NCBI RefSeq assembly: GCF_036248255.1
Contig: NZ_CP109178.1
Coordinates: 62,001-126,000, forward strand
Source of the DNA: Streptomyces sp. NBC_01717
GTDB taxonomy: Bacteria; Actinomycetota; Actinomycetes; Streptomycetales; Streptomycetaceae
Reading direction: 5' to 3'
DNA length: 64,000 nt
Positions 7,821 to 18,962 of the stretch are shown one piece after another. The notes beneath the pieces were generated by a model. The model was given only the letters and a program-made list of their open reading frames with translations. It was not told the DNA's origin and made no database searches. Made by a program: the position numbers and the translations under genes. Numbering within the stretch: the first letter of the stretch is position 1; each line of letters starts with the position of its first letter.

Positions 7821-8840
7821 TCACGCCCCCGGCGGCGGCCCCGTCGTCCCGCGCACCATCAGCCGCGGTTCCAGCACCAGTTCGCGCGGCGGCGGCGACG
7901 CCGCGTTCTCCAGCCGCTCCACCGCGAAGCTGACCGCCTGCGCGGCCTGAGCCGCGGCGTCCTGGCGGACCGTGGTCAGGTCGATGTGCGACAGATGGGA
8001 GAGGTAACTGTCGTCGAAACCCGCGACCGAGATGTCCCCCGGCACCTCCAGCCCCGCGCCTGCGAGGCTGTGCAGCAGGCCGACGGCGCAGCGGTCGTTG
8101 GCCGCGAGAACCGCGGTGGGTCGGGCGTCCTCCATGGCCAGCAGTCGCCCGGCGGCGATGCCCGCCTCCTCGGTATGTCCGCCGGGAATGACCCGGATCT
8201 CGTCGGCCAGGCCGTGACGACGCATCGCGGCACGATAGGCGCGGCGGCGCTCCGCGGAGCCGGCGCCCCGGCCGCCATCGATATGGGCGATACGGCGGTG
8301 TCCGAGGGTGACGAAGTGGTCGATGACTTGGCGTACGCCCTTGCCCTCCGCCGTACGGACGCTGTCCGCGGCGCTGCCCGGCACGTCCGCGCCCACCACG
8401 ACCAGGGCGGAGCTGCGCCGCGCCAGTTCGCCGAGGAAGGCGGCGTCCGATTCGGGCCCGAGCAGGATCAGCGCCTCGCAGCGGTGGCTGAGCAGCGCCT
8501 CGGCGGCCGTGCGCTCGTCGCGCCCCGGGGCGCGGGCCGACAGCAGCACGTCGTACTCCAGGCGCTCCGCCTCCGGGTAGATCGCCTCGACCAGGTCGGC
8601 GTGGAAGGGATGGTGCAGGGTCAGCAGCACGCCGATGGTGCGACTGCGGCCGCGGGCCAGCAGCCGGGCGGCGCTGTCCGGCTGGTAGCCCAGCTCGTCG
8701 GCTGCCCGCAGGACGCGCTGCCGGGTCTGCTCGCTGGCGCCCGGCCGGTTACGGAAGACCAGGGAGACCAGGGCGCGCGAGACACCCGCCCGGGCGGCCA
8801 CATCCACCATGGTGGGGCGCTTCTGGTCGGATCCTGCCAA
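7821..8840 (-). CDS. LacI-family transcriptional regulator of the inositol operon
   Basis: A 339-residue repressor-type regulator. The N-terminal LacI helix-turn-helix is clear (TMVDVAARAGVSRALVSLVF) with the hinge region QPDSAARLLARGRSRTIGVLL; the remainder is a periplasmic-binding-protein-like sensor domain (VLAANDRCAVGLLHSLAGAG, DISVAGFDDSYLSHLSHIDL). The start is TTG at 8840, seven bases after AGGAG; longer frames upstream have no family sequence. It is divergent from iolC, with a palindromic operator between them, so it most likely controls inositol catabolism. The effector could be inositol or a breakdown intermediate; this is inferred from context. Confidence 0.9.
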   Translation of the reverse strand: MAGSDQKRPTMVDVAARAGVSRALVSLVFRNRPGASEQTRQRVLRAADELGYQPDSAARLLARGRSRTIGVLLTLHHPFHADLVEAIYPEAERLEYDVLLSARAPGRDERTAAEALLSHRCEALILLGPESDAAFLGELARRSSALVVVGADVPGSAADSVRTAEGKGVRQVIDHFVTLGHRRIAHIDGGRGAGSAERRRAYRAAMRRHGLADEIRVIPGGHTEEAGIAAGRLLAMEDARPTAVLAANDRCAVGLLHSLAGAGLEVPGDISVAGFDDSYLSHLSHIDLTTVRQDAAAQAAQAVSFAVERLENAASPPPRELVLEPRLMVRGTTGPPPGA

Positions 8841-8948
8841 CGCTTCGCTCCTGTCTTGTCGCGCTCTGGCCGTCGTCCTGACGGTGCGGACCTTCGCGTC
8901 TGCTCCCGCGCGGGAACACACTTCCTCGGCCGGCCGCCGCCCGCACTC

Positions 8949-9008
8949 TTGACATCCCGGCGCTACGGGATCATGGTACTCGCATCTAGCGCGCTCTAGT
9001 AGAGCGCG
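8949..9008 (+). promoter_or_regulatory. iol operon promoter and LacI-type operator
   Basis: TTGACA at 8949-8954 is a consensus -35 element, with CATGGT at 8972-8977 as the best -10 at 17 bp spacing. At 8990-9008 lies the perfect dyad CGCGCTCTA-G-TAGAGCGCG, centred 23 bp before iolC. Position just downstream of the -10 and the odd-centred symmetry fit repression by the divergent LacI-family protein. Confidence 0.6.
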
Positions 9009-9021
9009 ACAGGAGGGTTTC

Positions 9022-9966
9022 ATGGCACTGGATGTGCTGACGATGGGGCGGGGCGGCGTGGACATCTACCCGCTGCAGAGCGGCGTCGGCCTGGCGGAGG
9101 TCACCTCGTTCGCCAACTACCTCGGCGGCAGCCCGACGAACGTCGCCGTGGCGGCGGCCCGCTACGGGCGCGCCGCCGCCGTCGTCACGAAGACGGGGGC
9201 GGACCCCTTCGGCGAGTTCGTCCGCGCGGCCCTCACGGGCTACGGCGTGGACACCGCCCATGTGGGCGTCTCCCCGGGGCTGCCGACGCCGGTGACGTTC
9301 TGCGAGATCTTCCCTCCGGACCACTTCCCGCTGTACTTCTACCGCTTCCCCAAGGCTCCGGATCTGGACATCACGCCCGAGGAGCTGGACCTGGGCGCGA
9401 TCCGCTCGGCAAGGGTGTTCTGGATGACCGGCACCGGGCTGTGCGAGGAGCCGAGCCGAGCCGCCACTCTGGCGGCACTGCGGGCGCGCGGGCGGAGGGC
9501 GCACACGGTCTTCGACCTGGACTGGCGCCCGATGTTCTGGACCACCCCGCCCCGGGCCTGGTACGAGGAGGCCCTGGCGCACGCGACCGTCGCTGTCGGC
9601 AACATCGACGAATGCGAGGTCGCCACCGGCGAGCGGGACCCGTATGCCGCGGCCCGAGCGCTGCTGGCCACGGGCGTGGAGCTGGCCGTCGTCAAGCAGG
9701 GACCGCGCGGTGTGCTGGCCGTGCATCGGGACGGCACCGCGGTGGAGCAGCCGCCGGTGCCGGTGGATGTGGTCAACGGCCTCGGTGCCGGCGACGCGTT
9801 CGGCGGTGCGCTGGTGCACGGCCTACTGGCCAGCTGGGAACTGGACCACATCATCGCGTTCGCCAACGCGGCCGGCGCCCATGTGGCCGGACAGCTCGCC
9901 TGCTCGGACGCCATGCCCACCGAGACCGAGGTCGCGGAGCGGCTGAAGGCGGCCGGCACATGGTGA
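9022..9966 (+). CDS. iolC: 5-dehydro-2-deoxygluconokinase
   Basis: A 314-residue PfkB/ribokinase-family kinase. It phosphorylates 2-deoxy-5-keto-gluconate in cytoplasmic myo-inositol catabolism. The first PfkB signature region is NYLGGSPTNVAVAAARYG near residue 32 and the second is NGLGAGDAFGGALVHG with catalytic-base Asp258. AGGAGG lies 7 nt before the ATG. It is the first gene of the operon and its stop overlaps the next gene (ATGGTGA). The IolC assignment over other PfkB kinases rests on the neighbouring iolB and iolD. Confidence 0.93.
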   Translation: MALDVLTMGRGGVDIYPLQSGVGLAEVTSFANYLGGSPTNVAVAAARYGRAAAVVTKTGADPFGEFVRAALTGYGVDTAHVGVSPGLPTPVTFCEIFPPDHFPLYFYRFPKAPDLDITPEELDLGAIRSARVFWMTGTGLCEEPSRAATLAALRARGRRAHTVFDLDWRPMFWTTPPRAWYEEALAHATVAVGNIDECEVATGERDPYAAARALLATGVELAVVKQGPRGVLAVHRDGTAVEQPPVPVDVVNGLGAGDAFGGALVHGLLASWELDHIIAFANAAGAHVAGQLACSDAMPTETEVAERLKAAGTW

Positions 9967-10841
9967 AGGGGCGGATCCGGGAGCTGACCTCGCTGCGGGT
10001 GCGGGATCCGGAGGCGGTGGCCACGGCGGCCGCGGCCCGGAGGCGGGCCAAGTCCCCGCTGGGAGACACCGGGCGGGCAATGGTCATCGCCGCCGACCAT
10101 CCGGCCCGCGGGGCGACGGCGGTGGGCGGCGACGCGCTGGCCATGGCGGACCGTGCCGAGCTGCTGCGGCGGCTGTGCGTCGCACTGGAGCGGCCCGGGG
10201 TGACGGGGGTGCTGGGCACCGCCGACATCCTGGAGGACCTGCTGCTGCTCGGGGTACTGGACGACAAGTGCGTGTTCGGGTCGATGAACCGGGGCGGACT
10301 GGCCGGCTCGGTCTTCGAGATCGACGACCGGTTCACCGGCTACGACGCGCATACCATCGCCGAACTCCGCTTCGACGGCGGCAAGATGCTCACTCGCGTC
10401 GCCCTCGACGATCCGGCCACCGCCGGCGTGCTGCAGAACTCGGCCCGGGCAGTCGACGAGCTGGCCGAGCGGCGGCTGCTGGCCATGGTGGAGCCGTTCC
10501 TGTCCCACTGGGAGGACGGCCGGGTGCGCAACGACCTGTCGCCCGACGCGGTCGTCCGCTCGGTGGCCATTGCTTCCGGTCTCGGCCGGCGCAGCGCCTA
10601 CACATGGCTGAAGCTGCCGGTGGTCGACGACATGGAGCGGGTACTGGCTGCGACCACCCTGCCGGTGCTGCTGCTCGGCGGCGATCCGGGCGACGCAGAT
10701 GGGGAGCGGGTGGCGCGAGCCAAGTGGTGGCGGGCGCTGCGGCTGCCCGGGGTGCAGGGGTTGGTGGTGGGCCGTTCGCTGCTCTATCCGGCGGACGGCG
10801 ATGTGGCGGGAGCGGTGGACAGGGCGGTGGGGCTGCTGTGA
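9960..10841 (+). CDS. Cgl0159-family aldolase (IolJ-type role)
   Basis: A 293-residue TIM-barrel protein of the family found in actinobacterial inositol clusters, where it probably cleaves 2-deoxy-5-keto-gluconate 6-phosphate to dihydroxyacetone phosphate and malonate semialdehyde. Visible landmarks are AMVIAADHPARGATAVGGD near residue 41, GVTGVLGTADILEDLL, and a C-terminal phosphate-binding-like LPGVQGLVVGRSLLYP. The ATG at 9960 overlaps the iolC stop and the gene ends in GTGA shared with iolB, indicating translational coupling. The family assignment is good; the exact reaction is inferred from the pathway. Confidence 0.82.
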   Translation: MVKGRIRELTSLRVRDPEAVATAAAARRRAKSPLGDTGRAMVIAADHPARGATAVGGDALAMADRAELLRRLCVALERPGVTGVLGTADILEDLLLLGVLDDKCVFGSMNRGGLAGSVFEIDDRFTGYDAHTIAELRFDGGKMLTRVALDDPATAGVLQNSARAVDELAERRLLAMVEPFLSHWEDGRVRNDLSPDAVVRSVAIASGLGRRSAYTWLKLPVVDDMERVLAATTLPVLLLGGDPGDADGERVARAKWWRALRLPGVQGLVVGRSLLYPADGDVAGAVDRAVGLL

Positions 10842-11698
10842 GCACGAAATATCTGCAAGCGGATACCGCGGCCTCCGGGCCGTACCGAACGGTGATCACG
10901 CCGAAGTCGGCGGGGTGGGGCTACTCGGGCCTGCGGATCCTTCAACTGGCGCCGGGCCAGGAGCACGTCTTCGGCACCGGTGACGCGGAGCATCTGGTGC
11001 TGCCCCTGTCCGGCGGCTGCACGGTTACCGTCGACGGCGCGTCGTACGAACTGAAGGGGCGCGACGGCGTGTTCGGCGCTCCCACCGACTTCCTCTACCT
11101 GCCCCGGGACGGCGAGGCCCGCGTGACCAGCCGCAACGGCGGCCGCTTCGCGCTACCCTCCGCCCGCTGCGAGCGGCGCCTCCCGGTGCGTTACGGCCCG
11201 GCGGAGGAGGTGCCCGTGGAACTGCGCGGGGCCGGCAGCTGCAGCAGGCAGGTCCACAACTACTGCCTGCCGCAGACCTTCGACGCCGACCGGTTGCTGG
11301 TGTGCGAGGTGCTGACGCCGGGCGGCAACTGGTCGTCGTACCCACCGCACAAGCACGACGAGGCGCGGCCGGGCGAGGAGGGCGAGCTCGAGGAGATCTA
11401 CTACTTCGAGGTGGCGGACGGGGGCATGGCCTATCAGCGGGTGTACGGCTCCCCCGAGCGGCCCGTCGACGTGCTCCAGGAGGTGCGCAGCGGCGACACG
11501 GTGCTGATTCCGCACGGCTGGCACGGGCCGTCCATGGCTGTGCCCGGCTACGACCTGTTCTACCTCAACGTGATGGCGGGGCCCGGCCCCGAACGCGCCT
11601 GGCTGATCTGCGACGACCCGGCGCACGGCTGGATCCGTACCACCTGGGAGGACCAGCCCACCGATCCGCGGCTGCCGTTCGGAGGGACGACGAGATGA
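10838..11698 (+). CDS. iolB: 5-deoxy-glucuronate isomerase
   Basis: A 286-residue cupin enzyme that converts 5-deoxy-D-glucuronate to 2-deoxy-5-keto-gluconate. The metal-binding cupin signature is visible as WSSYPPHKHDEARPGEEGEL followed by EEIYYFEV, and the second cupin strand as VLIPHGWHGPSMAVPGYDLF. The GTG start overlaps the previous stop and its own stop overlaps iolD (ATGA). Length is normal for the family (about 270-300). Placement between the aldolase and iolD agrees with the order of actinobacterial inositol operons. Confidence 0.94.
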   Translation: MSTKYLQADTAASGPYRTVITPKSAGWGYSGLRILQLAPGQEHVFGTGDAEHLVLPLSGGCTVTVDGASYELKGRDGVFGAPTDFLYLPRDGEARVTSRNGGRFALPSARCERRLPVRYGPAEEVPVELRGAGSCSRQVHNYCLPQTFDADRLLVCEVLTPGGNWSSYPPHKHDEARPGEEGELEEIYYFEVADGGMAYQRVYGSPERPVDVLQEVRSGDTVLIPHGWHGPSMAVPGYDLFYLNVMAGPGPERAWLICDDPAHGWIRTTWEDQPTDPRLPFGGTTR

Positions 11699-13551
11699 GA
11701 CTGACCACCGGCCAGGCACTGGTGCGCTTCCTGGCGAACCAGTTCAGCGAGCGCGACGGTCGTGAGCGGCGGCTGATCGACGGCGTGTGGGGGATCTTCG
11801 GCCACGGCAACGTGGCGGGGATCGGGCAGGCGCTGCTACAGTACCCCGACGAGCTGCCGTACTTCCTCGCCCGCAACGAGCAGGCGATGGTGCACACCGC
11901 CGCCGCCTACGCCAAGATGAACGACCGGCTGGCGACCTACGCCTGCACCTCCTCCATCGGCCCCGGCGCCACCAACATGGTCACCGGTGCCGCGCTGGCC
12001 ACCGTTAACCGGCTGCCGGTGCTGCTGCTGCCCGGCGACACCTTCGCCACCCGCGTCGCCGACCCCGTGCTGCAGCAGCTGGAGGATCCGCGCCAGGGCG
12101 ATGTCTCGGTGAACGACGCGCTGCGGCCGGTGTCGAAGTACTTCGACCGGATCGAGCGCCCCGAGCAGCTGATCCCGGCCGCCCTGGCCGCGATGCGGGT
12201 GCTCACCGACCCGGTGGAGACCGGCGCGGTGACGCTGTGCCTGCCGCAGGACGTGCAGGCGGAGGCCTTCGACTGGCCGGAGGACTTCTTCCGCCGCCGG
12301 GTCTGGCACGTGGGCCGGCCGCAGCCCGAACCCGACGCGCTGACGCGCGCGGTGGCGCTGCTCCGGCAGGCCGAGCGGCCGCTGATCGTCGCGGGCGGCG
12401 GTGTGGTGTACGCGCAGGCGTGGCCGCAGTTGCGGGAGTTCGCCGAGGCGACGGGCATCCCGGTGGCGGACACGCACGCCGGCAAGGGCGCGATCCCGTG
12501 GGACCACCCGTGCGCGGTGGGCGGCCTCGGCTCGACCGGCACCAGCGCCGCCAACGCGCTGGCCGCCGAGGCGGACGTGGTCCTCGGCATCGGCACCCGC
12601 TACAGCGACTTCACCACCGCCAGCCGGACGGTCTTCGCCTACCCGCAGGTGCGGTTCGTCAACCTCAACGTGGCCCGGCTCGACGCCGTCAAGCACGCCG
12701 CCGAACCCCTGGTGGCCGACGCCCGGGCGGGCCTGGAGGCGCTGACCCGCAAGCTGGCGGACTGGCGCACGGACGAGGCGTACCGGGCCCGCGTGCGGGA
12801 GCTGGCCGCCGACTGGCGGGGGGCCACTGACCACGCCTACCACCTGGGCCACGGCCCGCTGCCCGCGCAGACCGAGATCCTGGGTGCGCTGAACGAACTC
12901 CTCGACGACCGGGACGTGGTGATCAACGCGGCCGGCTCGATGCCGGGCGATCTGCAGGCGCTGTGGCGGGCGCGCGATCCGAAGGCGTACCACGTGGAGT
13001 ACGCGTACTCCTGCATGGGTTACGAGATCGCCGCCGGGGTCGGCGCCAAGCTGGCCGCCCCCGACCGCGAGGTGGTGGTGCTGGTCGGCGACGGCTCGTA
13101 TCTGATGATGTGTCAGGAGCTGGTCACTGCCGTCTCGGAGGGGCTGAAGCTGACGGTGGTGCTGGTCGACAACGGCGGCTTCGCCTCGATCGGCGCGCTG
13201 TCGGAGTCCCTCGGCTCGCAGCGCTTCGGCACCCGCTACCGCTTCCGCGACGAGAAGTCCGGGCGGCTGGACGGCGGCGTGCTGCCGGTGGATCTGGCGG
13301 CGAACGCGGCGAGCCTGGGCGCGCGGGTGCTGAGTGCGGGCAGCGTTCCCGAGTTCCGTGCGGCGCTGTTGGAGGCCAGGGCCGCCGACCGCACGACGGT
13401 CGTGCATGTCACCACGGACCATCTCAGCCCCGGTCCGCCGAGCTCCGCCTGGTGGGACGTGCCGGTGGCGGAGGTCGCGGAGCTGGACTCCACCCGGCAG
13501 GCACACGCCTCGTACGAGACCGCCAAGCGGGCGCAGCGGCCGTATCTGTGA
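11695..13551 (+). CDS. iolD: 3D-(3,5/4)-trihydroxycyclohexane-1,2-dione acylhydrolase
   Basis: A 618-residue thiamine-diphosphate enzyme that opens the ring of trihydroxycyclohexane-1,2-dione to give 5-deoxy-glucuronate. The conserved ThDP Glu is Glu62 in RNEQAMVHTAAAYAKMND; the central domain lies at about 200-340; the Mg-ThDP motif begins GDGSYLMM (Asp466) and continues to VVLVDNGGF. GGAGGG precedes the ATG, which overlaps the iolB stop. The length matches the family (about 620-640). No broken residues were noticed, so the first half of the pathway appears intact up to the damaged mmsA that follows. Confidence 0.95.
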   Translation: MRLTTGQALVRFLANQFSERDGRERRLIDGVWGIFGHGNVAGIGQALLQYPDELPYFLARNEQAMVHTAAAYAKMNDRLATYACTSSIGPGATNMVTGAALATVNRLPVLLLPGDTFATRVADPVLQQLEDPRQGDVSVNDALRPVSKYFDRIERPEQLIPAALAAMRVLTDPVETGAVTLCLPQDVQAEAFDWPEDFFRRRVWHVGRPQPEPDALTRAVALLRQAERPLIVAGGGVVYAQAWPQLREFAEATGIPVADTHAGKGAIPWDHPCAVGGLGSTGTSAANALAAEADVVLGIGTRYSDFTTASRTVFAYPQVRFVNLNVARLDAVKHAAEPLVADARAGLEALTRKLADWRTDEAYRARVRELAADWRGATDHAYHLGHGPLPAQTEILGALNELLDDRDVVINAAGSMPGDLQALWRARDPKAYHVEYAYSCMGYEIAAGVGAKLAAPDREVVVLVGDGSYLMMCQELVTAVSEGLKLTVVLVDNGGFASIGALSESLGSQRFGTRYRFRDEKSGRLDGGVLPVDLAANAASLGARVLSAGSVPEFRAALLEARAADRTTVVHVTTDHLSPGPPSSAWWDVPVAEVAELDSTRQAHASYETAKRAQRPYL

Positions 13552-13584
13552 TCCGTTCCGACTGAACAGCGAAACGAGAACCCC

Positions 13585-14917
13585 TTGCACGCCATCGAGC
13601 ACTGGATAGTCGGCTCCCCCGCCGCAGGCTGCGGCAGCCGCACCGCCCCCGTCTTCGACCCGGCGACCGGACGGCAGCGGGCGAGCGTGCTGCTGGCGGA
13701 GCCGGCCGACGTGGACGCGGCGGTCACCGCCGCGGCCGAGGCCTTCGACAGCTGGAGCGAGAGCTCCCTCAGCACCCGGATGCGGGTCATGTTCGCCTTC
13801 CGTGAGCTGCTCGTACGGCATGAGGACGAGCTGGCCCGGATCATCTCCGCCGAGCACGGCAAGGTGCTGGACGACGCGCGCGGCGAGGTGGTGCGCGGGC
13901 GGGAGGTCGTGGAGTTCGCGTGCGGGATCGCCGACGCGCTCAAGGGCGACTACTCGGCGCAGTACTCGCGCGGGGTGGACGTGCTGTCCTTCCGTGAGCC
14001 GCTGGGGTGTGCGCGGGGATCACCCCGTTCAACTTCCCGGCCATGGTGCCGCTGTGGATGCATCCCATCGCCATCGCGACCGGCAACACCTTCGTCCTCA
14101 AGCCCAGCGAACGCGACCCCTCGGCGTCGAACCGGATCGCCGGGCTGTACGCCGAGGCCGAGCTGCCGGGCGGCGTGTTCAACGTCGTGCGCCGTGGTAC
14201 TGCCCGATGCGGACCCGGAGTTCGCCGCCGACCAGCTGATCGCCGCCGCCTACGGCTCGGCCGGGGAGCGGTGCGTGGCGGTCTCGGTGGCCGTCGCGGT
14301 CGGGGACGCGGCGGACCCGCTGGTCGCGGCGCTGGGGCGCAGGGCGCGGGCAGTGCGGGTCGGGCCCGGCGACGATGCGGCCAGCGAGATGGGGCCGCTG
14401 GTCAGCCACGCCCTCCGGGCCGTGGATCGGGCTGTCGCCGATGAGGGAGTCCTTCCAGCCGCCGAAGGAGTAGCCGGCCATCGGCACCGGCACATTGACG
14501 CCGATCATCCCGACCTGCACCCCGCGCTGGAACCGCCGCGCCGCGCCGTCGTCGCCGGTGAACAGGGCGGTGCCGTTGCCGTACGGGTTGGCGTTGACCA
14601 GCTCGATGGCGGCGTCGAGGGTGGCGACGCGTACGACGGCGAGGACGGGGCCGAAGATCTCCTCGCGGTAGGCGTCCATGCCGGGCGTGACACGGTCGAG
14701 CAGCGACGGGCCGGTGAAGAACCCGTCCTCGTGCCCCGGCACCGTCAGCCCCCGCCCGTCACCACGACGACCGCGCCCTGCCGCGCCGCCGAGGCGACGG
14801 CGCCCTCCACCCGCTCCCGTGCGGCTGCGCTTCTACACCCGGCCGAAGGTCGTCACCACCCGCTGGCCGGACGGGGGCGGCCCGCGCGCCGCCTTCGCGT
14901 TCCCGACGTCCACCTGA
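13585..14917 (+). pseudogene. mmsA: methylmalonate-semialdehyde dehydrogenase, deleted and internally inverted
   Basis: The gene should encode the CoA-acylating dehydrogenase of about 500 residues that turns malonate semialdehyde into acetyl-CoA. The N-terminus is normal (MHAIEHWIVGSPA, FDPATGRQRASV, SAEHGKVLDDARGEV). One G is missing in a G run near 14008, after which [20 protein letters not shown] continues in another frame. At about 14190 FNVV jumps to [13 protein letters not shown]: some 55 residues, including part of the NAD-binding region, are absent. SAGERC with the catalytic Cys remains. From 14407 to 14821 the sequence is inverted: the minus strand reads [49 protein letters not shown]. 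Plus-strand coding resumes with [15 protein letters not shown]. It cannot make a working enzyme. Confidence 0.9.
14407..14821 (-). other. inverted segment inside mmsA
   Basis: This 415-bp block carries mmsA coding sequence on the strand opposite to the flanks. It starts with CACG and ends with CGTG, a 4-bp inverted repeat; slightly wider, CAGCC (14403-14407) pairs with GGCTG (14823-14827). Turning it over restores the MmsA order: RERVEGAV, then the EEIFGPV region, the [12 protein letters not shown] region, then GPEGV joined to RLRFYTRP. Within it one further base is missing near 14755. Confidence 0.85.
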
Positions 14918-14982
14918 GACCGCCGAGACGGCTGCGACCGCTGAACCCGCCCGTATCTCCCAGACCCCTGAAAGGCCATACC

Positions 14983-15924
14983 GTGAGCACCGCATCGACC
15001 CCCCGCGCCACCGCGGGCAACCTCTGCCTCGGCTCCGCGCCCGACTCCTGGGGCGTGTGGTTCGCCGAGGACGAGCACCAGGTCCCCTACACCCGCTTCC
15101 TCGACGAACTCGTCCAGGCCGGCTATCGCTGGCTGGAGCTCGGCCCGTACGGCTACCTCCCCGTCGACCCGCGGCGCCTGGCCGACGAGCTGACCGCCCG
15201 CGGACTGCAGGTCTCCGGCGGCACCGTCTTCGGCGCGCTGCACCGGCCCGAGCAGTGGGACGAGATGCTGGCGGGCGCCCGCCGTGTGGCCGAGCTGACC
15301 GCCGCCGCGGGCGCGCACCACCTGGTGTTCATCCCGCCGCTGTACCGGGACGAGAAGACCGGCTCCTTCACCGAGTCCCCCGAGCTGACCGCCGCACAGT
15401 GGGACCTGGTCGGCGGCGCGGCGGATCGGCTGGGGAAGATCCTGCTGGAGGAATTCGACGTACGCCTCGTCGTCCACCCGCACGCCGACAGCCACATCCA
15501 GACCCAGCCGGAGATCGAGCGCTTCCTGAACGCCTCCGACTCCCGCTACGCCAACCTCTGCCTGGACACCGGGCACGTCGCCTACGGCCGCGGCGACAAC
15601 CTCGATCTGATCCGCCGGTATGCCGAGCGCATCGGCTACGTCCACATCAAGCAGATGGACGCGGAGATCCTCGCCCAGGTCGAGGCGGAGGACCTGTCCT
15701 TCAGCGAGGCCGTCAGGCGCGGCGTGTGCGTGGAGCCGCCGGCCGGGGTGCCGAACCCGGCGGACATCGTCGCCGCGCTGTCGGAGCTCGACGCGGAGCT
15801 GTTCGTCATCGTCGAGCAGGACCTGTACCCCTGCGCCCCGGAGGTGCCGCTGCCGATCGCGGTGCGCACCCGCGAGTATCTGAACGGCGCCGGGCTGTCG
15901 GGGACCCGGCGCCCCAACCGCTAG
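14983..15924 (+). CDS. iolE: IolE/IolI-type TIM-barrel (inosose dehydratase-like)
   Basis: A 313-residue protein of the AP-endonuclease-2/xylose-isomerase-like TIM-barrel superfamily, which in this context most likely dehydrates scyllo-inosose (IolE) or isomerises an inosose (IolI). Landmarks are GSAPDSWGVWF near residue 14, AGYRWLELGPYGYLP, VHPHADSHIQTQPEIERFL, LCLDTGHVAYG and GYVHIKQMDA, which carry the usual metal-binding Glu, His and Asp residues. GTG at 14983 (MSTASTPRATAGN) is the natural start; the frame is accidentally open back through the broken mmsA to 13585, which can create a false 779-residue fusion. IolE versus IolI cannot be settled by eye. Confidence 0.82.
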   Translation: MSTASTPRATAGNLCLGSAPDSWGVWFAEDEHQVPYTRFLDELVQAGYRWLELGPYGYLPVDPRRLADELTARGLQVSGGTVFGALHRPEQWDEMLAGARRVAELTAAAGAHHLVFIPPLYRDEKTGSFTESPELTAAQWDLVGGAADRLGKILLEEFDVRLVVHPHADSHIQTQPEIERFLNASDSRYANLCLDTGHVAYGRGDNLDLIRRYAERIGYVHIKQMDAEILAQVEAEDLSFSEAVRRGVCVEPPAGVPNPADIVAALSELDAELFVIVEQDLYPCAPEVPLPIAVRTREYLNGAGLSGTRRPNR

Positions 15925-15973
15925 CCCGCAAGCCCGCCTCTGTCCCGCCCGACCCGCAAGGAGAACGACTAGC

Positions 15974-16981
15974 ATGACCATACGTATCGGAGTGATCGGC
16001 ACCGGCTCGATCGGGCGCGAGCACATCGAACGCGTCACCCGCCGTACCAGCGGCGCCGTCATCTCCGCCGTCACCGACATCGACCGGGCCCTGGCCGAGA
16101 AGGCTGCGGGCGAGGCGGGCGGCGCCCGGGTGTGCGCCGACGGCGCCGAACTCATCGCCTCCGCGGACGTGGACGCGGTGCTGGTCACGTCCTGGGGCCC
16201 GACCCACGCCGAGCATGTGCTCGGCGCCGTCGCGGCGGGCAAGCCGGTGCTCTGCGAGAAGCCGCTGGCCACGACCGCCGAGGACTGCCTGGCCGTGATG
16301 GCGGCCGAAGAGGCCTACGGGCGGCGGCTGGTGCAGGTCGGCTTCATGCGCCGGTACGACACGGGCTACCGCGAGCTGAAGCGGATCATCTCCGGCGGCG
16401 GCATCGGCCGGGCGCTGATGATGCACTGCGCGCACCGCAACCGGGCTGTGCCGGACGCGTACACCACCGACATGGCGGTGCAGGACTCCGGCGTGCACGA
16501 GATCGACGCGGCGCGCTGGCTGCTGGACGACGAGATCGTCTCGGTGCAGGTGATCGTGCCGCGGTCGACCAGCCGGCGCTTCGAGCACCTGGCGGACCCG
16601 CAGTTCATCCTCTTCGAGACCGCCGACGGGGTGCGGATCGATCTGGAGGTCTTCGTCAACTGCCAGTACGGCTACGACATCCAGTGCGAGGCGATCGGCG
16701 AGGAGGGCCTGATCCGGCTGCCCGACCCGGCCCGGGCGCAGCTGCGGGCGGCGGCGCGGATCGGCACCGCGATCGACCAGGAGTGGGACGACCGCTTCTC
16801 GGCGGCCTTCGACGCGGAGCTGCAGGCGTGGGTGGACTCGGCCGCGGCGGGCCGCGCCACGGGGCCGTCGGCGTGGGACGGCTACGCCGCGACGGCGGTG
16901 TCGGTGGCGGCGGTGCGGGCGCAGCGCTCCGGCGGGGTGGAGCAGGTGGAGATGGTGGACAAGCCGGCGTTCTACGCCTGA
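15974..16981 (+). CDS. iolG: Gfo/Idh/MocA oxidoreductase, probable inositol 2-dehydrogenase
   Basis: A 335-residue NAD(P)-dependent dehydrogenase, likely the first step of inositol catabolism. The Rossmann motif is IGVIGTGSIGREHIER at the N-terminus; the substrate-site Lys96 is in LCEKPLAT; the catalytic His175 and nearby Asp are in DSGVHEIDAARWLL. AAGGAG stands 10 nt before the ATG. The final gene of the operon, it ends at a large bidirectional hairpin. The family is certain; myo-inositol rather than another cyclitol or sugar is inferred from the cluster. Confidence 0.87.
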   Translation: MTIRIGVIGTGSIGREHIERVTRRTSGAVISAVTDIDRALAEKAAGEAGGARVCADGAELIASADVDAVLVTSWGPTHAEHVLGAVAAGKPVLCEKPLATTAEDCLAVMAAEEAYGRRLVQVGFMRRYDTGYRELKRIISGGGIGRALMMHCAHRNRAVPDAYTTDMAVQDSGVHEIDAARWLLDDEIVSVQVIVPRSTSRRFEHLADPQFILFETADGVRIDLEVFVNCQYGYDIQCEAIGEEGLIRLPDPARAQLRAAARIGTAIDQEWDDRFSAAFDAELQAWVDSAAAGRATGPSAWDGYAATAVSVAAVRAQRSGGVEQVEMVDKPAFYA

Positions 16982-17030: not shown

Positions 17031-17294
17031 TCAGCCCTGGAGCTTCTCGAAGAAGAACTCGTGCTTCAGGAACGACGTGTCGTACTCCGCGCCCGGGTAC
17101 GGCGGGATCAGCTGCGCGGCCTGGAACAGCCGCCAGCCGTCCTGGAGCGCCGCGACGCCCGTCTCGTACGGCGGTTCGTCGCTGTCGCCGGTGGTCGGGC
17201 TGGTGCGGCCCGTGCCGTCGTACTGCGACCAGCCCACCACCTCGGAGTCGAGCGCCGAGTTGGCCAGATAGAGGACCAGGACCTGCTGCTTCAT
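17031..17294 (-). CDS. small conserved-looking protein coupled to a PhyH dioxygenase
   Basis: An 87-residue soluble protein (MKQQVLVLYLANSALDSEVV at the start, ending HEFFFEKLQG). I do not recognise a family. It begins in the stop codon of the upstream dioxygenase (ATGA), so the two are translationally coupled and probably act together. It has no signal peptide or membrane segment, is rich in aromatic residues near the C-terminus, and ends against the bidirectional hairpin. A role as a small partner of the dioxygenase is inference only. Confidence 0.75.
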   Translation of the reverse strand: MKQQVLVLYLANSALDSEVVGWSQYDGTGRTSPTTGDSDEPPYETGVAALQDGWRLFQAAQLIPPYPGAEYDTSFLKHEFFFEKLQG

Positions 17295-18109
17295 GCGTGG
17301 CTCCGGAGGGTGGGGCGGTTGGCGACGCGGGTCGCCCAGTAGTCGATGTCGAAGGTGTCGTCGCCGGTCAGGGCGCGCCAGAGTTTCACCCGGTTGTAGA
17401 CCTCCAGGCGGCCGGTGGCGGGCTCGTACCAGGGGAAGGTGCGGCTGAGTTCCCTGGCGACGGCGGGGTCGTCCAGGTCGGAGGTGTCCCAGAGGCGGAC
17501 CTGGGGGACGGTCGGGTTGAAGCGGATCTTGAACATGTAGCGCAGGATGTCGCTGTCGTTGCGCCGGCCGCCGTGCCAGATGCCATGGTGCAGCAGGACG
17601 ACCGTGCCGGCCGGGCAGGTGAGGCGGGTCTGGCCGCGGAGGTTCTGGTAGCGGCCGGTGTCGGACTCGTTGGTGCGGCGCAGATGGCTGCCGGGGACGC
17701 TGAGGGTGCCGCCCATCTCGGTAGTGACGTCCTGCGGGTAGTACATGAGCTGGACGTCGAACGCGTCGGGCCGGATGTCGATGACGGCGTCGGCGTGCAG
17801 GGGCTGGGCCTCGCCGCCGTGCGGTTCGCGGACGTGGACGAAGTGGTGGTCGACGGTGGGGCCCGGGCCGACGAGGCTCTCCAGGGCGCCGGCGACGGCC
17901 GGGAGCTCGATCAGCCGGCGGGCGAAGGACCCCCCGGGGAAGGCCTTGTCCACGGGGGTGCCGGACGGCACCTCGGGGATCCCGGCGTCGAAGACGCCGA
18001 TGGACTGCTCGTTCATCTCCGGCGGTACGACGGCGTCCAGGCGGAGCGAGCCGTGCGCGACGAAGCTCGCCACCTGGGCCGAGTTCAGTAGCTGCTTGCT
18101 GGTTGACAT
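17291..18109 (-). CDS. phytanoyl-CoA dioxygenase (PhyH) family protein
   Basis: A 272-residue Fe(II)/2-oxoglutarate-dependent oxygenase. The iron-binding facial triad is visible as His105 and Asp107 in PLHADAVIDIRPD and His179 in LLHHGIWHGGRR; the Arg for 2-oxoglutarate is probably in RYMFKIRFNP. The substrate is unknown. Its divergent neighbour is an AraC regulator that starts 70 bp away, and it overlaps the small gene downstream. Position next to the inositol operon may be accidental, because it is transcribed separately. Confidence 0.87.
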   Translation of the reverse strand: MSTSKQLLNSAQVASFVAHGSLRLDAVVPPEMNEQSIGVFDAGIPEVPSGTPVDKAFPGGSFARRLIELPAVAGALESLVGPGPTVDHHFVHVREPHGGEAQPLHADAVIDIRPDAFDVQLMYYPQDVTTEMGGTLSVPGSHLRRTNESDTGRYQNLRGQTRLTCPAGTVVLLHHGIWHGGRRNDSDILRYMFKIRFNPTVPQVRLWDTSDLDDPAVARELSRTFPWYEPATGRLEVYNRVKLWRALTGDDTFDIDYWATRVANRPTLRSHA

Positions 18110-18179: not shown

Positions 18180-18962
18180 ATGACCGGTCATGTGGTACTG
18201 CCGCTGGACGAACCGCCGCAGGCGGTGAACGCGGGCGTCGGCATGCACGGCACCCTCGGCTCGCACGACGTCTTCCGGCTTCCCGGCCTGTGGCAGCTGC
18301 ACCTGTACACCTACTCCGGCGAGCTGGCCTTCGGCGGCGGCCGGTATCCCATCCGGCCCGGGCACGTGAGCCTGGTGCCGCCGGATGTAGAGGTGCACTT
18401 CCACTACGAGTCGCGCCGGAACGAGCATCTGTACGCGCACTTCGCGCTGCCCGGCCGCGGTGAGAGGCGGACCGTGCCGGTGATGCAGGACGCGGGCGCG
18501 GAGGCCCCGGTGCTCACCGCTCTGCTGCGGCACGCGGTGGCCGCGATGCCGGTGTCGCCGGCGCGGGCGGCTGCGGAGGTGTGGACGGTGCTGTGGCACA
18601 CGGCGCAGCTCGGCGGCGGCCAGGAGGCGGCGGGGCAGCCGCATCCGGCGCTGGCGGCGGCGTTCGCGTACATCGAACAGGGGCTGGCGGGACCGCTGCC
18701 GGTGCCGGGGATCGCCCGGGCGGCGAGGGTCTCGCACAACCACCTCACCCGCCTGTTCCGCACGGGCACGGGCGACACGGTGGTGTCCTACATCCGCCGC
18801 CGCCGTATGGAGCGCGCCCGGCATCTGCTCCAGGCCTCGACGATGCCGATCCCGGCGGTGGCGGCGGCGGTCGGCATCCCGGACCTCCAGGCCTTCAACA
18901 AGACCTGCCGCCGCGAACTGGGAGCGGCGCCGCGTACGATCCGCGAGGCGGCGTGGTCCTAG
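18180..18962 (+). CDS. AraC-family transcriptional regulator
   Basis: A 260-residue regulator with an N-terminal cupin-like sensor domain (YPIRPGHVSLVPPDVEVHFH) and a C-terminal double helix-turn-helix (IEQGLAGPLPVPGIARAARV, SHNHLTRLFRTGTGDTVVSY, MPIPAVAAAVGIPDLQAF). It is divergent from the PhyH operon, from which only 70 bp separate it, so it probably regulates that operon. The sensor type fits a small sugar-like or metabolite ligand, but nothing in the sequence identifies it. Confidence 0.9.
   Translation: MTGHVVLPLDEPPQAVNAGVGMHGTLGSHDVFRLPGLWQLHLYTYSGELAFGGGRYPIRPGHVSLVPPDVEVHFHYESRRNEHLYAHFALPGRGERRTVPVMQDAGAEAPVLTALLRHAVAAMPVSPARAAAEVWTVLWHTAQLGGGQEAAGQPHPALAAAFAYIEQGLAGPLPVPGIARAARVSHNHLTRLFRTGTGDTVVSYIRRRRMERARHLLQASTMPIPAVAAAVGIPDLQAFNKTCRRELGAAPRTIREAAWS

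Follow-up and report, generated by a model that had tools for sequence, protein, structure and literature searches.

The stretch of DNA analyzed here (the window, 64 kb, G000:C1:62001-126000) lies close to an end of the main contig, C1, of a 10.2-Mb host genome in three contigs, 62 kb from one C1 end; the chromosome ends of Streptomyces are described as fast evolving (PMC8627663). It carries a cluster of inositol catabolism (iol) genes in which mmsA stands directly behind iolD, a gene order also seen in relatives (Table 1). The divergent LacI-family gene beside the cluster would, judging by its position, encode its regulator, and the iolG-like gene downstream of mmsA scores below the curated cut-offs. 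A phytanoyl-CoA dioxygenase-like gene and a divergent AraC-family regulator (window positions 17291-18109 and 18180-18962) also adjoin the cluster.

The six iol genes flanking mmsA have 0 stops, and their net indels relative to the nearest relative, G105, are all multiples of three. An earlier, preliminary description of this DNA, in which the rest of the operon was considered intact, is thereby borne out for the six genes checked.

Table 1. Features of the iol cluster and the broken mmsA gene, in window coordinates
Feature	Position	Strand	Remarks
LacI-family regulator, divergent, beside iol cluster	7821..9065	-	PF00356 and PF13377
iolC, Cgl0159-like aldolase, iolB, iolD	9022..13551	+	upstream of mmsA; apparently intact
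mmsA remnant, N-terminal piece, 140 aa, TTG start	13585..14004	+	136/140 residues identical to intact allele P0242
Single-base loss in G run, frame shifts	14003..14007	+	aligned to L010; frame change also vs L119, L120, L121
mmsA remnant, second piece, shifted frame	14007..14188	+	88.9-91.9% aa identity to three relatives
152-bp deletion scar	14188..14190	+	profile positions ~201-250 missing
mmsA remnant, third piece, GERC motif	14190..14407	+	85% nucleotide identity to L010
Inverted mmsA block	14407..14821	-	CACG/CGTG ends; ends uncertain by up to ~30 bases
6-bp in-frame loss, Val-Pro repeat contracted, inside inverted block	14480..14500	-	alignments
Single-base loss within inverted block, near 14760	14755..14770	-	alignment; no long homopolymer as aligned
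mmsA remnant, C-terminal piece and stop	14822..14917	+	75.5% nucleotide identity to L010 over 14826-15100
TIM-barrel iolE-like and iolG-like genes	14983..16981	+	downstream of mmsA; apparently intact

Lesions and reading frames of the broken mmsA

The best family for the three scanned pieces of the window mmsA (13585-14917) is TIGR01722, i.e., the CoA-acylating (methyl)malonate-semialdehyde dehydrogenases MmsA/IolA (MMSDH family). Its profile matches 13585-14030 on the plus strand at positions 1-142 (E 2.1e-40), 14007-14195 on the same strand at positions 139-200 (E 6.6e-29), and a minus-strand open reading frame (ORF), 14179-14742, at positions 353-464 (E 2e-43). In the genome profile search, positions 250-335 are read on the plus strand again, in the piece with the GERC motif, presumably the site of the catalytic cysteine. 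These matches and the alignments to relatives agree with the preliminary description in placing the MmsA N terminus and extreme C terminus on the plus strand. The start codon is TTG in the window, and four relatives (L010 to L013) have Met at that place.

For DNA comparisons we used 29 loci (L010 to L038), the best matches of a 199-genome search; a contig scan returned at least 80 loci, mainly from other genera, which were left out. No strain of the same species was present in overlapping draws of 199, 392, and 395 genomes, the nearest relative in those draws being G105, with ~81-85% DNA identity across the mmsA pieces. The deletion near 14190 had previously been put at about 55 residues; the deletion is there, and its size is 152 bases, or ~51 codons, at the 14188/14189 gap in all 10 relatives measured among the 29 loci. 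Similarly, of the base losses that had been attributed to G runs, one does lie in such a run, near 14003-14006, while around the other, at about 14760, the alignment shows no long homopolymer.

The pieces score 138.9, 100.9, and 148.8 bits, all below the curated TIGR01722 cut-off of 448.5 bits, which applies to a full-length match; they fall short of it in the genome profile search as well, and so do not qualify as members of the enzyme family. Unlike a working MmsA/IolA, the window mmsA lacks ~51 codons, has lost its frame and contains an inverted block; as predicted from its sequence, it should not encode the enzyme. Homology along its length, disabling lesions, and intact orthologues elsewhere, by which a pseudogene is recognized, were all found. 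Pseudogenes bearing small inversions are a recognized kind, and the window gene resembles them in its multiple lesions within one gene, its coding-like substitutions, and its intact neighbors; it differs in that its close alleles visibly include an intact one and intermediates. We therefore judge the window mmsA to be a genuine and otherwise ordinary pseudogene, in a redundant copy of the operon, whose lesion is unusual but of a known type.

Two long frames nevertheless stay open across the broken gene, and could be taken for a new functional protein. One is the minus-strand ORF, of 187 aa in the window and 210 aa in a related allele (P0001, see below); the other is a plus-strand ORF of 779 aa (13585-15924), which starts at the mmsA TTG, crosses the inversion, and continues in frame into the iolE-like gene. 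Long chance ORFs are, however, usual in this GC-rich DNA, and the first 111 residues of the minus-strand ORF are simply the old MmsA frame, with most of the protein missing. Moreover, the iolE frame is open upstream through an intact mmsA in G105 (838 codons) and partly so in G184, though not in G047. We regard a new protein as extremely improbable. A meaningful MmsA-IolE fusion encoded by the 779-aa ORF was likewise considered and dropped, the iolE frame being fully open upstream in one of these three relatives, where mmsA is intact. Automatic annotation could call this frame a false MmsA-IolE fusion.

Related alleles and the age of the loss

The protein database was queried with the minus-strand ORF, the N-terminal piece, and the protein of an intact relative. 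This retrieved several close alleles. One of them, P0242, is an intact protein of 497 aa in collinear order, from a cluster of 10; it is 97% identical to the window N-terminal piece and matches the inverted piece in 109 of 113 columns. The inversion junction of the window is crossed by P0001, a 210-aa protein whose 7-member cluster is represented on a 3,905-base contig and which terminates in the window's own reading of the deletion scar; its postjunction and scar strings are found on the minus strand of the window at 14314-14406 and 14182-14214, respectively. P0001 also has the 6-bp loss. It differs from the window at two other residues of the shared stretch, the start apart, and is without the second base loss.

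In P0121 the deletion scar is present and the G-run loss absent, the frame being maintained across 14003..14007; its final residues were absent from the six frames of window positions 13001-16000. P0002 represents a collinear C terminus, which shares 150 of 151 residues with P0242 and lacks the 6-bp loss. The P0001 and P0002 sources could perhaps be the same strain or species as the window. Finally, in P0144 (source name, Streptomyces sp. P5_D11) the N terminus is joined to an out-of-frame later part of the middle. The motifs of this out-of-frame tail are present in the window and were not found in the G105 locus (L119), and we read P0144 as a probable different, much larger deletion of the same mmsA.

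An allelic series can be laid out from these proteins: P0242 is intact, P0121 has the scar without the G-run loss, P0001 has the scar, the 6-bp loss, and the inversion, and the window has all lesions. This would suggest an order for the lesions, as read from the proteins of the related alleles rather than from their DNA. The mmsA case hence appears as a stepwise gene loss in which an intact allele and two intermediates are visible.

The preliminary description had offered two readings of the inverted segment, a true small inversion or a mis-assembly. A collinear, intact gene mis-assembled and overlaid with read errors would be in keeping with the position of one single-base loss in a G run. 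Such an artefact would have to recur, since P0001, on its 3,905-base contig and with different letters, has the same inversion junction and scar without the second base loss; this makes mis-assembly very unlikely. Lesions of several kinds within one gene, next to six neighbors free of frame errors relative to G105, also argue against it. Taken together, P0001, P0242, P0121, P0002, and P0144 make it far likelier that the window mmsA is an inherited, decaying allele, and of the two readings first offered, the true inversion is by far the better fit.

The pattern of substitutions bears on when the gene was lost. Mismatches between the mmsA pieces and G105 at the three codon positions number 31/415, 38/417, and 108/415 (0.075, 0.091, and 0.26), and those of the intact iolD number 76/616, 66/615, and 209/615 (0.123, 0.107, and 0.34). 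A third-position excess relative to G105 is common to the mmsA pieces and the six intact neighbors, with a second- to third-position rate ratio of 0.35 for the mmsA pieces and of 0.27 to 0.47 for the neighbors; the value of 0.35 is above those of two pairs of intact relatives' mmsA genes (0.22 and 0.30). These coding-like substitutions indicate that the gene was under coding constraint through most of the divergence and that its loss is recent.

Orientation, ends, and origin of the inverted block

In alignments to all 29 relative loci, the block at ~14407-14825 of the window takes the orientation opposite to that of its flanks, which, with the minus-strand profile match, confirms the previously described 415-bp inversion of the middle of mmsA. 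The CACG and CGTG ends that had been reported are also present, at 14407-14410 and 14818-14821, as four exact bases common to both ends, 415 bp from end to end. The left flank aligns directly up to ~32 bases into the block in 3 of the 29 loci and the right flank in 8 of the 29, an overrun that would come from the weak similarity between the ends. This similarity includes an imperfect inverted 18-nt pair (78% complementary; 14422-14439 versus 14793-14810, among the 25 of 37 pairs listed) and, with gaps, extends over ~35-40 columns. The gapped score was matched by 16% of 3,000 random pairs for the window, and in four collinear relatives that of the same end similarity was matched by 3-10% of 2,000 random pairs. 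The inverted similarity at the block ends is weak and close to chance.

A reversible, recombinase-driven flip turning mmsA on and off (an intragenic inverton) would account for the occurrence of both orientations among close alleles, with P0242 and P0002 collinear and P0001 and the window inverted, and could exploit the imperfect similarity at the ends. Intragenic inversions are on record in work cited by PMC11868660, and the repeats of known DNA switches are described as typically 10-20 nt long, often with mismatches (PMC5903667). Like phase-variable inversions, the window-type mmsA segment is found either way round among alleles. Unlike them, it has four exact end bases within near-chance similarity and is linked to fixed lesions, so that flipping back would leave the gene broken by the deletion and the base losses. 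A switch of this kind seems very improbable, and an illegitimate micro-inversion is the likelier origin.

The micro-inversion would have arisen by illegitimate joining, or by fold-back template switching, between the weakly similar inverted ends; we lean toward these processes, rather than a site-specific recombinase, as having made it. There are three Ku-family matches in the host genome, and end joining by the NHEJ pathway is reported to operate in Streptomyces (PMC5869714).

The second mmsA and the meaning of the loss

The preliminary description expected inositol breakdown to halt at malonate semialdehyde in the absence of a second mmsA, for which it proposed searching the rest of the genome. 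That search identified an intact gene at 6.03 Mb (6.033 Mb; 499 aa, 825 bits, no stops), directly behind a second iolD (6.031 Mb) and iolB (6.030 Mb). Genes of the iolC and aldolase types immediately precede this group; the genes checked in this second cluster were those resembling iolC, the aldolase gene, iolB, iolD, and mmsA. A dead end at malonate semialdehyde is therefore not expected. A survey of inositol clusters excluded iolA from its core genes since valine metabolism uses it too (PMC9430895). By family function, the second MmsA probably keeps the pathway working, in both inositol and valine breakdown. More generally, one broken copy of mmsA need not mean a pathway gap.

We then compared the two copies by profile search of 18 genomes, the host plus 17 relatives picked as earlier matches. 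MMSDH matches over the cut-off number two to four in each of the 17 relatives versus one in the host. An accessory-type mmsA over the cut-off and with no stops is present in 17/17 of these relatives, chosen as they were among earlier matches; the host has none, its single match being of the other type. In an N-terminal tree of 31 rows (30 of the 40 MMSDH matches plus the window), the window falls in the accessory clade and the 6.03-Mb copy groups with the other type, with 100/100 support on both sides.

Overall, the data are best accounted for, with a probability of about 0.92 in our estimation, by a recently and stepwise inactivated paralogue in a host that has two iol clusters and that a named protein hit suggests is a streptomycete. 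In the accessory-type cluster of the window, mmsA has decayed by the 152-bp deletion, the 6-bp loss, the ~415-bp micro-inversion, and the two single-base losses. With an intact mmsA in the second cluster, the window copy would have become redundant and selection on it relaxed, and the breakdown of inositol and valine would rely on the second MmsA. Relatives with at least two iolD copies still hold the accessory mmsA intact, which counts against simple redundancy; redundancy hence permits the loss of mmsA but does not predict it.

That close mmsA alleles have been broken in different ways is mildly surprising. The window and P0001 share the scar and inversion, P0121 has the scar and another truncation, and P0144 has a larger deletion, while an intact allele persists. 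These differences raise the possibility, which we consider unlikely though less so than the alternatives discussed above, that loss of the accessory mmsA is recurrent and perhaps favored, and that the cluster may shift to the central MmsA or to another end product. If the loss were recurrent, the locus would offer a small natural system for the decay of redundant streptomycete operons and the origin of micro-inversions.

Elsewhere on the main contig, a third iolB that exceeds the cut-off of its family (L128, G000:C1:7894257-7895186) lies beside an iolD match to the first 27 profile positions only. The two are perhaps the remnant of another iol cluster.
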